Below are positions 25,686 through 38,031 of a stretch of DNA of 64,000 nt, piece by piece. Position numbers and translations under genes: made by a program. The notes below the pieces were generated by a model, which was given only the letters and a program-made list of their open reading frames with translations, ran no database searches and was not told where the DNA came from. Numbering within the stretch: the stretch's first letter is position 1; each line of letters begins with the position of its first letter. The DNA lies in assembly GCA_016928575.1 (NCBI GenBank), contig JAFGKK010000002.1:1-64000 (forward strand), read 5' to 3'. The stretch is from Anaerolineales bacterium. Its GTDB lineage: Bacteria; Chloroflexota; Anaerolineae; Anaerolineales; RBG-16-64-43.

Positions 25686-25799
25686 ACGCCTCCAAAGACT
25701 GCAGATACGCGTTTTATCTTGCGCAGCTCCCTCGTCCTTCCCCCGGAGGACATCTCCTAAATGATACCCGAGAACGGAAATTTTGGCGGTTTCCGCACC

Positions 25800-25821
25800 G
25801 ACCCTAAGGGTTCCCAAGGGT
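25800..25821 (-). repeat. 22-base dispersed repeat, inverted copy
   Basis: Its reverse complement begins ACCCTTGGGAACCC and is identical over 22 bases to two copies at 36682-36703 and 36721-36742. It lies just after the DUF1461 stop. Confidence 0.7.
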
Positions 25822-34326: not shown

Positions 34327-35046
34327 TCAGACGGGAGTCCACACCGCGTAATCCGCAAGCCTTCCCCCCTCGCCGTCGGATTCGAAGCGTTCGGTTTCCG
34401 TGAATTCCGAATCCTCCGCCAAGGTGGATCTTTCCCGCTCGTCGACGATGTGCACGTACCGCAGACCGCGCCCCTCACTCCGCCAATCCAGCAGGTAATC
34501 CCCGCTATCGACGTCGGATTCCGATAGTCCGATTTCTTCCCAGGCGACGGTCCGCATCCGCAGCTTCGGACTGCGCCGGAACTGCCAAGTGGAGAGGAAC
34601 AACCATCCGCCGGGAACGAGCATGCGCCGGCAAGCACGCAGGAATGCGAGGCGCCTTTGCGCATCGGGAATGTGGTGCAGGACGGCGAACGCCAGGACGA
34701 AACCGAACGGTTCCGCCGCCGGCATGCGGTCCCATCCGGATTCGAAAAAATCCGCTTGCCGGAATTCCGCGGGAAACGGAAAATCCGCGCTGCGGGCGAT
34801 CTCCAAGAGCGGGTCGCTGAGATCCAATCCGAGGTAGCGGCAGGGAGGGTTGTGCGCGGCGAGCCAGCGCGCCGCGTTTGCGTTTCCACAGCCGAGGTCG
34901 GCGACGGCGGAGAGGGGCGGAATCCGCGCCAGCAACCGCCGGGCGCCGGGTTGGATCCGACCGCGCGTGGCGGAAAACGGCGCGGCGAAGGTTTGATAGA
35001 ATGCCCGATTAAGATCGGCGAGGCGGCAGGCGATGTCGGACTTCAT
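34327..35046 (-). CDS. Trm9-like SAM methyltransferase (tRNA wobble-uridine type, inferred)
   Basis: A 239-residue class I methyltransferase. AFYQTFAAPFSATRGR (the F-S-x-T-R motif) precedes motif I VADLGCGNAN (about 48-57), then DLSDPLLEIAR, AVLHHIPD and a C-terminal part GDYLLDWRSEGRGLRYVHIV and WTPV. The F-S-x-T-R start, V-L-H-H and the DYLxxW..RYxHxxxxxEL order are those of Trm9/ALKBH8-type enzymes that methylate cm5U at the tRNA wobble base. It is divergent from elp3, whose product makes cm5U, and their coding 5' ends overlap by 14 bp. A -10 box lies eight nt upstream of the ATG. Function inferred from motif order and neighbour. Confidence 0.75.
   Translation of the reverse strand: MKSDIACRLADLNRAFYQTFAAPFSATRGRIQPGARRLLARIPPLSAVADLGCGNANAARWLAAHNPPCRYLGLDLSDPLLEIARSADFPFPAEFRQADFFESGWDRMPAAEPFGFVLAFAVLHHIPDAQRRLAFLRACRRMLVPGGWLFLSTWQFRRSPKLRMRTVAWEEIGLSESDVDSGDYLLDWRSEGRGLRYVHIVDERERSTLAEDSEFTETERFESDGEGGRLADYAVWTPV
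34992..35002 (+). promoter_or_regulatory. Extended -10 promoter of elp3
   Basis: TTTGATAGAAT, with TGA before TAGAAT, 30 nt before ATG 35033. It lies inside the divergent methyltransferase gene. Confidence 0.5.
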
Positions 35047-36673
35047 ACCCGGGGATTATACAGAAGAAGAACGGCGAAGGCTCGAGGCGTGGAAACGCAC
35101 CCGGGATTACACTGATCCGGAGCGCCGGGCCGCCGCCCGCGCGATTCTGCTTGAGATGGCGGGCGGGGGCGAACTCCGCGCCGCGCTGCACCGCCATCCG
35201 GCGCGCGGGAGTTACCTGAGCAAGGATTTCCTCGTCGCCGAATACCGGCGGATGGCGGCGGCGGGCGAGTTGTCCGCCGATCCTGGCCTGTTGGAGCGCT
35301 TGCGGATGAAGCCGGTGCGCTCGCTTTCCGGGGTCGCCACCGTCAGCGTGCTCACCCGCCCCTACCCGTGTCCGGGGGAGTGCGTCTTCTGCCCGGATGA
35401 TGCGCGCATGCCCAAAAGCTACATCGCCGACGAGCCGGGCGCCCTGCGCGCCGCACAGAACGCCTTCGATCCGTACCGCCAGGCCGCCAGCCGGCTAACG
35501 TCGCTCGAATCGGTCGGCCATCCGACCGGCAAGGTCGAGTTGCTGATCCTCGGCGGAACCTGGAGCGCCTATCCGCGGGATTACCGCGAACGCTTCGTCC
35601 AGCGCCTGCTGGATGCCCTGAACGGGGAAGACTCCAAATCCCTTGCCGACGCCCAGCGGAGGAACGAATGCGCCCCCCGGCGCAACGTCGGTCTGGTGGT
35701 GGAGACCCGACCGGATTCGGTTACGGCGGATGAATTGCGCCGCATGCGCACGCTGGGGGTGACCAAGATCCAGGTCGGCGTCCAAAGCCTCGACGACCGG
35801 ATTCTCGGATTAAACCGCCGCGGGCACGACGCCGCCGAATCCCGCCGGGCCTTCCGCCGGATGCGCGCCGCCGGTTTTAAAATCCAGGCGCATTGGATGC
35901 CGAACCTGCTTGGGGCGACTCCCGAAAGCGACCGCGCGGATTTCGCCCGGCTGTTCGACGATCCGGAAATGCGGCCGGACGAGCTGAAGATCTATCCCAC
36001 GGTCCTTGTCCGCAACAGCCCGCTGTACGCCTTTTTCGAGCGCGGCGAGTACCGCCCGTATTCCCACGCGGAACTGGTGGAATTAATGGCGGCGATCAAA
36101 CCGACGATCCCGCCGTATTGCCGGGTCAACCGGCTGGCGCGGGATATCCCCGGGCATCACGTCGCGGCGGGATCGAAGCGCTCCAATTTGCGCGAGGACG
36201 CTCAGCGCCTGCTCGCCGCCCGCGGCTTGCGCTGCCGCTGCATCCGCTGTCGGGAAGTGCGCGAAAAAAAGATAATGCGCCAAGACCTGCAATTGTCGGA
36301 CCTGGCCTACGAAGCGGGCGGGGCGCTGGAGCGGTTCCTTTCCTTCGTCACCCCCGAAGAAAAACTGGCCGGATACCTGCGGCTTTCGCTTCCCCGGAAG
36401 CGGCATCCGGAGATCGATTGGGCCGATTTAAGGGATGCCGCAATCATTCGCGATCTCCATATCTATGGACAAACGCTTCCGCTTGGGGAAAGCCGGGAGG
36501 GCGCCGCGCAGCACCTCGGCTTGGGCGGGGACCTGCTCGCGCGCGCGGAGGAGATCGCGCGCGGATCCGGTTTCCGCGCGCTGGCCGTCATTTCGGCGGT
36601 TGGGACGAGGGAATACTACCGGGAGCGGGGCTTTGCGGACGGGGAGCTATATCAGGTGAAGCCGCTCTCCTGA
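35033..36673 (+). CDS. elp3: Elp3-like radical-SAM tRNA carboxymethyluridine synthase
   Basis: A 546-residue Elp3. The radical-SAM cluster is C113-x3-C117-x2-C120 in RPYPCPGECVFCPDD, preceded by KPVRSLSGVATVSVLT and followed by PKSYIADEPGALRA. Later family stretches are ETRPDSVTADEL, IQVGVQSLDD, ELKIYPTVLVRNSPLY, RVNRLARDIPGHHV and a zinc-type CRCIRCREV. The C terminus is a GNAT domain (HLGLGGDLLARAEEIARGSGF, YYRERGF). Elp3 acts on U34 of tRNAs to form 5-carboxymethyl derivatives from acetyl-CoA and SAM. Bacterial Elp3 from Dehalococcoides is the structural model. Divergent Trm9-like gene overlaps the first 14 bp. Confidence 0.93.
   Translation: MSDFIPGDYTEEERRRLEAWKRTRDYTDPERRAAARAILLEMAGGGELRAALHRHPARGSYLSKDFLVAEYRRMAAAGELSADPGLLERLRMKPVRSLSGVATVSVLTRPYPCPGECVFCPDDARMPKSYIADEPGALRAAQNAFDPYRQAASRLTSLESVGHPTGKVELLILGGTWSAYPRDYRERFVQRLLDALNGEDSKSLADAQRRNECAPRRNVGLVVETRPDSVTADELRRMRTLGVTKIQVGVQSLDDRILGLNRRGHDAAESRRAFRRMRAAGFKIQAHWMPNLLGATPESDRADFARLFDDPEMRPDELKIYPTVLVRNSPLYAFFERGEYRPYSHAELVELMAAIKPTIPPYCRVNRLARDIPGHHVAAGSKRSNLREDAQRLLAARGLRCRCIRCREVREKKIMRQDLQLSDLAYEAGGALERFLSFVTPEEKLAGYLRLSLPRKRHPEIDWADLRDAAIIRDLHIYGQTLPLGESREGAAQHLGLGGDLLARAEEIARGSGFRALAVISAVGTREYYRERGFADGELYQVKPLS
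35055..35060 (-). promoter_or_regulatory. -10 box for the Trm9-like gene, leaderless placement
   Basis: TATAAT on the minus strand, eight nt before the ATG at 35046. It lies inside the elp3 coding region. Confidence 0.55.
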
Positions 36674-36681
36674 TCGGAGGA

Positions 36682-36742
36682 ACCCTTGGGAACCCTTAGG
36701 GTCGGGGGCAACCCTTGTCTACCCTTGGGAACCCTTAGGGTC
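36682..36742 (+). repeat. Two direct copies of a 22-base repeat
   Basis: Copies at 36682-36703 and 36721-36742 are identical (ACCCTTGGGAACCC start) and separated by 17 bases. A third, inverted, copy is at 25800-25821. Both places are just after a gene end. Confidence 0.7.
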
Positions 36743-36757
36743 GGGGGATTCTCCGCC

Positions 36758-36883: not shown

Positions 36884-37171
36884 ATGCGCAACTACGAAGT
36901 CGGTTTAATTTTCCACCCGGATACCAATCCGCAAGCCCTTGACGATCTCCTTAATAAAATCAAAGGCTGGGTAACGGAGGCGGGAGGCACCGTCGCCAAG
37001 GTCGACACGTGGGGCAAACGGCGCTTGGCGTATGCCATCCGCAAACAGCGCGACGGCGTTTACGCCTTCCTGTATGCGGACATGCCCGGCGCGGTCCCGG
37101 CCACGCTCGAACGGAATCTGCGGCTGACGGAATCGATTCTGCGGTTCGCCATTATCCGTACCGGGAGTTAG
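36884..37171 (+). CDS. rpsF: 30S ribosomal protein S6
   Basis: A 95-residue S6: MRNYEVGLIFHPDT at the start, KVDTWGKRRLAYAIRKQRDGVYAFLYADM in the middle and ESILRFAIIR at the end. Length is normal. First gene of the rpsF-ssb-rpsR operon, with AAAGGAGG nine nt before ATG. Confidence 0.98.
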   Translation: MRNYEVGLIFHPDTNPQALDDLLNKIKGWVTEAGGTVAKVDTWGKRRLAYAIRKQRDGVYAFLYADMPGAVPATLERNLRLTESILRFAIIRTGS

Positions 37172-37225
37172 CGCGGCGGACGCGGCCGCGGCGCGGGATT
37201 GGCGCCGCCGGTCAGGAGCGGTTTG

Positions 37226-37615
37226 ATGTCAAGAAGCCTAAACAAAGTGATGATCATCGGGTACCTCGGCCGGGATCCGGAGATGCGCTACACCTCGTCC
37301 GGAAAGCCGGTCACCACGTTTAGCGTGGCGACCAACCGAGTCTGGAGCAGTTCCAGCGGCGAACGCCACGAGGAAACCGAGTGGTTCACCGTTGTGTCCT
37401 GGGGAAATTTGGCCGAGATCTGCAAACAGCATCTCAGCAAGGGGTCCCAGGTCTATGTCGAAGGCCGCCTGCAAACCCGCCGCTGGGAAGACGCCGACGG
37501 AAAAAAGCACGCGGCCGTCGAGATCGTAGCCGGCGAAATGATCCAACTCGGCGAAAAACGGGATGCCTCCGGCTCGGCCAACTACCCGGCGGTCGAAGAG
37601 GACTATCCCTTTTAG
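37226..37615 (+). CDS. ssb: Single-stranded DNA-binding protein
   Basis: A 129-residue SSB with an OB fold (LNKVMIIGYLGRDPEMRYT, ETEWFTVVSWG, GSQVYVEGRLQTR) and the acidic C-terminal tip EEDYPF used for protein contacts. The linker is short. ATG 37226 is preferred over an upstream extension because it begins the domain (MSRSLNKV). Lies between rpsF and rpsR as in many bacteria. Confidence 0.96.
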   Translation: MSRSLNKVMIIGYLGRDPEMRYTSSGKPVTTFSVATNRVWSSSSGERHEETEWFTVVSWGNLAEICKQHLSKGSQVYVEGRLQTRRWEDADGKKHAAVEIVAGEMIQLGEKRDASGSANYPAVEEDYPF

Positions 37616-37710
37616 CGCGGCCCGGTGCAGGCGACTCCCGGGTTCCCGGCAACTCAGGATTCCGCCCCCCGGCGGAGTCCGGGAATGGATAACCGGCGGC
37701 GGAGGCCGCC

Positions 37711-38031
37711 ATGGAGGAAAGCATGGACGTTGGGCAAGAAACCCCGAGAACGGAAGAATCAACTCCGTCTGAAAGCAGCGGCGGCGGAGGCGGAGGCGGC
37801 GGGCGCGGGCGCGGCGGATACGTCCGCAAGCCGCGCGTTTGCCAATTCTGCGTGGAGAAAATAAATGTGATCGATTACAAACAGGCGGATATGCTGCGCA
37901 AGTTCGTCATGGAGCGCGGCAAAATCCGGCCCCGGCGCCAGACCGGCACCTGCGCCCTGCATCAACGGGCCCTGGCGGTGGCGGTGAAGCGCGCCCGGCA
38001 CATGGCCTTGCTGCCCTTTGCCGATGAATAA
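37711..38031 (+). CDS. rpsR: 30S ribosomal protein S18
   Basis: A 106-residue S18 with core [24 protein letters not shown] and [26 protein letters not shown]. The C-x2-C indicates the zinc-type form. The N terminus carries a Gly-rich extension ([15 protein letters not shown]). ATG 37723 is also possible, since GGAGG sits five nt before it; it would drop four residues. Confidence 0.96.

Follow-up and report, generated by a model that had tools for sequence, protein, structure and literature searches.

In most bacteria the xm5 side chain at U34 is made by MnmE-MnmG. Elp3 alone, in the form of archaeal MinElp3, makes cm5U in vitro (cited in PMC7663514 and PMC7694415), and Trm9-Trm112 converts cm5U to mcm5U (PMC5372719, PMC7694415). 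Elp3 and Trm9 genes are clustered in Sulfolobus solfataricus (PMC2584109). Among bacteria, Elp3 was placed in one clade (Dehalococcoides) by a 2020 review, according to which direct evidence of cm5U derivatives is lacking there (PMC7663514). In a catalogue of the same year only archaea and eukaryotes are credited with mcm5U (PMC7694415). According to a 2017 review, no gene significantly similar to Trm9 or to other Trm112 partners was detected in bacteria (PMC5372719). No report of a bacterial Trm9 was found in the literature searched, preprints and most subscription papers being outside this search.

The window, i.e. the whole stretch of DNA analysed, 64,000 nucleotides in length, carries elp3 and, in divergent orientation, the gene of a Trm9-like methyltransferase. 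The two genes probably encode enzymes of a bacterial pathway that act one after the other on the wobble uridine, cm5U34 being formed first and mcm5U34 from it. The pair is not restricted to the window. Nearly all relatives with Elp3 in two Chloroflexota classes possess it.

Divergent genes and their start region

Both open reading frames are located exactly at the coordinates given in the preliminary description and share 14 bp at their starts (Table 1). Facing -10 boxes had been claimed as well. The respective words are present, each inside the opposite gene; a sigma-70 scan gave no -35/-10 pairs. The 14-bp overlap and the TATAAT and TAGAAT words are kept in one same-family relative belonging to a sister genus, PLND01000051 (G232), in which the start codon of the methyltransferase gene is GTG.

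Table 1. Positions of the genes, start-region elements and methyltransferase motifs in the window
Feature	Position	Strand	Remarks
Methyltransferase gene, Trm9-like class I SAM	34327-35046	-	ATG, 239 aa; ORF table and sequence
elp3, radical SAM and acetyltransferase tRNA U34 enzyme	35033-36673	+	ATG, 546 aa
Shared start regions, 14 bp	35033-35046		ORF table and sequence
TATAAT, possible -10	35060-35055	-	Inside elp3, 8 nt upstream of methyltransferase ATG; kept in L012
TAGAAT, possible -10	34997-35002	+	Inside methyltransferase gene, 30 nt upstream of elp3 ATG; kept in L012
FSATR motif, residues 24-28	34963-34977	-	Alignment A1; R28 matches ScTrm9 R29
VLHH motif, residues 122-125	34672-34683	-	Alignment A1; H125 matches ScTrm9 H115
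C-terminal lid DYLLDW...RYVH, residues 183-199	34450-34500	-	Alignment A1; R196 and Y197 invariant

Retention of the overlap and of both -10-like words in the sister genus agrees with a regulatory switch, in which the shared start region and the opposed -10 boxes would make the two proteins mutually exclusive. Such a switch is highly improbable. Beyond the window's family the overlap is lost, the matched domains of the two genes are 26 to 1999 bp apart in other Anaerolineae, a cysH-type gene often lies between the two genes, and a full promoter match is absent. In other genera the distance between the methyltransferase gene and elp3 is 26-140 bp or 1-2 kb, or a cysH-type gene intervenes. The earlier proposal that the overlapping starts make expression mutually exclusive or linked is not supported, because the family alone has kept the 14-bp overlap. 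A switch role of the overlap was dropped on these comparative grounds. The conserved feature is the divergent neighbourhood of the methyltransferase gene and elp3. A common divergent promoter region serving both genes is plausible.

Downstream of elp3, on the same strand, apparent rpsF, ssb and rpsR genes (S6, single-strand binding protein and S18) are located at 36884-38031. The 20-bp word GGGAACCCTTAGGGTCGGGG occurs three times in the window, at 36688-36707 and 36727-36746 (+), both directly 3' of elp3, and at 25796-25815 (-). One of the copies has 1 mismatch; 0.03 are expected.

The 546-aa protein is certainly Elp3. It matches TIGR01211 over the full length with 494 bits (curated cut-off 350) and, in the PDB, DmcElp3 (5l7j) with an E-value of 1.8e-111. 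The radical-SAM cysteines C113, C117 and C120 are invariant across 52 Elp3 loci. The acetyl-CoA site was checked at residues K77, K193, E386, H388 and Y441 (DmcElp3 numbering). The window protein has K167, K283, H476 and Y528 at the sites of K77, K193, H388 and Y441, and D474 at that of E386. The latter position is occupied by Glu at 27 of 29 Anaerolineae Elp3 loci and by Asp in the window and at one other locus. The protein has an N-terminal extension of about 90 aa (window 35033-35300). The extension is mostly 80-110 aa long in Anaerolineae Elp3s and is absent from most Dehalococcoidia Elp3s. In archaeal Elp3 the N-terminal extension matters for tRNA binding (PMC6367351). Formation of cm5U34 is the activity predicted for the window Elp3.

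Distribution of the gene pair in Chloroflexota

The sample of 301 genomes was drawn from across the phylum Chloroflexota; genome-wide checks were made by family searches. The class names Anaerolineae and Dehalococcoidia were derived from the relative PLND01000051 and from the DmcElp3 match. Elp3 was detected above the cut-off in 52 of the 301 genomes. Homologues of the window methyltransferase (family A1) were detected in 28 of the 301, all belonging to one class and comprising the window's family, every sampled member of the window's order, and three further families. Elp3 is present in 28/28 of the A1 genomes, with 4.8 expected by chance. The A1 gene and elp3 are neighbouring and divergent in 24 of these genomes, the window included. 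This does not hold for G176, G144 and G240, nor for G096, where the contigs are split. A search of genome contigs with the single protein yielded PLND01000051, of the same family, as the one true relative, besides a partial match in Herbaspirillum.

In many members of f2, the largest family of Anaerolineales, a gene of about 250 aa lies between the pair in the orientation of elp3. A CysH-type gene was observed directly upstream of elp3 in L075, L077, L078, L080, L083, L085, L090 and L096; in L096 the methyltransferase gene is on another contig than elp3. The intervening CysH-type gene looks like an ordinary phosphoadenylyl-sulfate reductase of sulfate assimilation.

A second family (A2) was found by a search of the Elp3 genomes without family A1, using the A1 profile. 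In Dehalococcoidia the best matches of this profile are short methyltransferases, mostly of 212-250 aa, adjoining elp3. A divergent A2 neighbour is present at 23 of 23 Dehalococcoidia Elp3 loci, the matched domains lying 7-282 bp apart. In genome G007 (L050) the A2 gene is divergent to elp3. The Dehalococcoides group carries the pair, because the Elp3 of this genome is 93% identical to the structurally solved DmcElp3 of D. mccartyi. The preliminary description had left the conservation of the pair to a search of other Chloroflexota; linkage of the methyltransferase gene and elp3 proved to be conserved in two classes, in 24/28 A1 genomes and in 23/23 Dehalococcoidia Elp3 genomes.

G192 (L060, L100) is the sole genome among the 52 with Elp3 in which a Trm9-like gene was not found: neither A1 nor A2 adjoins elp3, and no full-length match is located elsewhere. 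It is a naturally occurring example in which the end product may be cm5U or ncm5U. The genome belongs to the same class as the window and is estimated to be 100% complete.

Relation of the methyltransferases to Trm9

The F-S-x-T-R, V-L-H-H and DYLxxW..RYxH motifs, on which the original assignment was based, are all present in the window methyltransferase. The lid consists of D-Y-L-L-D-W (residues 183-188) and R-Y-V-H (residues 196-199). The A1 profile and alignment comprise 27 homologues of the window protein. Of 606 ORFs with a length of at least 180 aa, 26 contain the lid motif, and 26/26 belong to the family of the window methyltransferase. As a search pattern, the lid caught 25/27 A1 proteins and only 5/22 A2 proteins; it is thus A1-specific and no general test for Trm9.

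In a PDB search with the single sequence of the window methyltransferase, Yarrowia Trm9 (5cm2) was second, with an alignment extending into the C-terminal region. With the A1 profile it was first of 170 matches (E 5e-15, positions 25-219) and, among the best 60 of the 170, the sole match spanning the C-terminal lid. Trm9 was also the top match of the A2 profile (E 3.4e-21). The AlphaFold models of the window methyltransferase and of one A2 protein had pLDDT values of 94.6 and 91.3, respectively. In Foldseek comparison of the window model with the PDB, Trm9 ranked 1 of 1976 (E 3.1e-13); rank 1 was likewise obtained with the A2 model, and with both models the lead of Trm9 over other class I methyltransferases was modest. 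The A1 and A2 profiles are alignable over 189 columns. The C-terminal part alone matches Trm9 with 23.8 bits in A2 and with 6.8 bits (weak) in A1. With Yarrowia Trm9 as the whole-genome query, the elp3 neighbour was the only match in 10/10 Dehalococcoidia genomes. In the window's genome the window gene came first, with a weaker match (E 3e-6); in several Anaerolineales relatives the elp3-linked gene came second or was not found.

The window methyltransferase matches only generic methyltransferase models of Pfam and NCBIfam, every NCBIfam match being under the cut-off, and the host genome has 48 matches to PF08241. These generic matches and numerous PF08241 proteins are consistent with an unrelated small-molecule or quinone-type methyltransferase that merely adjoins elp3. 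This identity is very unlikely in view of the presence of Elp3 in all 28 A1 genomes, adjacent in 24, the restriction of the lid motif to this one methyltransferase family, and Trm9 as the best PDB match. The Trm9-type enzyme of the preliminary description, for which a structural comparison with Trm9 had been suggested, is thus borne out in so far as Trm9 is top by profile and by fold. Homology did not assign the protein to an unrelated small-molecule family.

In yeast Trm9, residues R29, H115, R241, Y243 and N271 serve tRNA binding and activity (PMC5372719). The A1 counterparts of R29, H115 and R241, mapped by alignment, are R28, H125 and R196, invariant in the 27 sequences. The Y243 position is occupied in A1 by V, A, C or T (V198 in the window), and an Asn matching ScTrm9 N271 was not found in the alignment of the 27 A1 sequences. 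Residues D224, G225 and Y233 are invariant residues of A1's own. The window protein is named Trm9-like, and not a full member of Trm9, because Y243 and N271 are unmatched in A1. In the A2 alignment all five residues have counterparts: R21, H114, R170, Y172 (in 21/22) and N210 (in 22/22). When further methyltransferases from these genomes were included in a tree, A1 and A2 each formed a good clade, and Trm9, itself on a long branch, joined A1 (94/79). A2 took no firm position, and a single clade of A1, A2 and Trm9 was not recovered because of long branches.

The unconserved Y243 and N271 positions, the invariant residues peculiar to A1, and a tree that does not show A1 and A2 as one clade would suit a methyltransferase of the Elp3 pathway with specificity changed in A1, acting on another atom (e.g. 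2'-O) or forming another product. This possibility is regarded as unlikely: the equivalents of R29, H115 and R241 are invariant, Trm9 leads by profile and fold, and A1 occupies the same genomic position as A2, which keeps all five residues.

Probable wobble-uridine pathway and known systems

MnmG is present in 121 of the 301 Chloroflexota genomes. It was found together with Elp3 in 0/52 genomes (20.9 expected; P 7e-14, genomes being treated as independent). No family is shared by Elp3 (17 families) and MnmG (31 families), with 6.5 expected (P 8e-5). Both P values are uncorrected for deeper phylogeny. Full-length MnmE was found in 5/5 MnmG genomes versus 0/15 Elp3 genomes tested; in the latter, MnmE matches are partial only and cover the GTPase region. 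Since Elp3 never occurs with MnmG, and full-length MnmE is absent from the 15 genomes tested, MnmE-MnmG appears to be replaced by Elp3 in these Chloroflexota. Neither Elp3 nor MnmG was detected above the thresholds used in 128 of the 301 genomes, several of which are nearly complete.

MnmA exceeds the cut-off in 14 of the 15 Elp3 genomes examined for MnmE, as it does in 5/5 MnmG genomes. The genome of the window contains tRNA genes Arg-UCU, Lys-UUU, Gln-UUG, Glu-UUC, Gly-UCC and Leu-UAA. The organism thus possesses U34 tRNAs, a 2-thiolase, Elp3 and the Trm9-like enzyme, and is devoid of MnmEG. Two Trm112p matches, both weak (24.6 and 22.9 bits; cut-off 22), were obtained in the window's genome; neither adjoins the pair. 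Such matches are near-ubiquitous (54/60 genomes of the class) and hence uninformative on a complex with Trm112.

CmoM, too, is a SAM-dependent carboxyl methyltransferase with U34 as its site of action. A Chloroflexota counterpart of CmoM, methylating cmo5U34 to mcmo5U and not cm5U34, would therefore be of the same general type; it is extremely improbable. The linkage is to elp3, and CmoB was above the curated cut-off in 0/20 genomes tested (15 with Elp3 and 5 with MnmG), on which grounds CmoM identity was rejected.

In the preferred reading, that of two consecutive steps at U34, Elp3 would act without other Elongator subunits and by acetyl-CoA and radical SAM chemistry form cm5U34 (5-carboxymethyluridine) in target tRNAs such as Lys-UUU, Glu-UUC, Gln-UUG, Arg-UCU and Gly-UCC. 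The Trm9-like neighbour would methylate the carboxylate of cm5U34 with SAM to give mcm5U34; the presence of MnmA makes mcm5s2U34 possible as well. The Elp3 and Trm9-like route would operate in place of MnmE-MnmG. The conversion of cm5U34 to mcm5U34 is thus the putative reaction of the methyltransferase, and its independence, like that of Elp3, from other Elongator subunits and from Trm112 is a prediction. For the two-protein bacterial mcm5U pathway proposed in the preliminary description, the results computed here (Elp3 identity, Trm9-like sequence and fold, divergent linkage in two classes, and absence of MnmEG) make the pathway likely; the accompanying expression switch is abandoned. The Dehalococcoidia counterpart, the apparent replacement of MnmEG and the mismatch of A1 at Y243 and N271 go beyond that description. 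It is slightly more likely than not that MnmEG has been replaced in the two Chloroflexota classes by Elp3 and a Trm9-like enzyme without an adjacent Trm112 gene, so that mcm5(s2)U34 would be formed. Anaerolineae and Dehalococcoidia may each have recruited a Trm9-type enzyme separately to this same divergent place.

The methyltransferase is a candidate second enzyme for bacterial Elp3 in the same organisms, and the predicted purpose of bacterial Elp3 is that of a stand-in for MnmEG. The predicted product, mcm5U, is checkable by mass spectrometry. If the prediction is true, the Elongator/Trm9 wobble pathway extends to bacteria, in a minimal two-enzyme version suitable for mechanistic work, and these Chloroflexota carry a nucleoside so far assigned to eukaryotes and archaea.

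The window methyltransferase resembles yeast Trm9 and the methyltransferase domain of human ALKBH8 in the class I SAM fold, the FSxTR-like motif with its N-terminal Arg, the HH motif, the W...RYxH lid and the proposed place after Elp3 in the pathway. It differs from them in being bacterial, in the location of its gene next to elp3, and in the lack of conservation of Y243 and N271 in A1. Unlike in Trm9-Trm112, no Trm112-like gene was seen beside the window pair. The archaeal Elp3 and Trm9 of Haloferax volcanii and Sulfolobus are similar in the absence of other Elongator subunits, the presence of a Trm9 homologue and, in Sulfolobus, the gene cluster; archaeal thiolation is performed by Tuc1/Ncs6-type enzymes, whereas MnmA is present here. 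DmcElp3 (5l7j) belongs to the same enzyme family as the window Elp3, and in G007 a Trm9-like gene is divergent to elp3. DmcElp3 differs in lacking the N-terminal extension of Anaerolineae Elp3s (PMC6367351) and in that the neighbour is A2 and not A1. MnmE-MnmG (GidA) likewise provides the xm5 side chain at U34, by a chemistry different from that of the Elp3 route.
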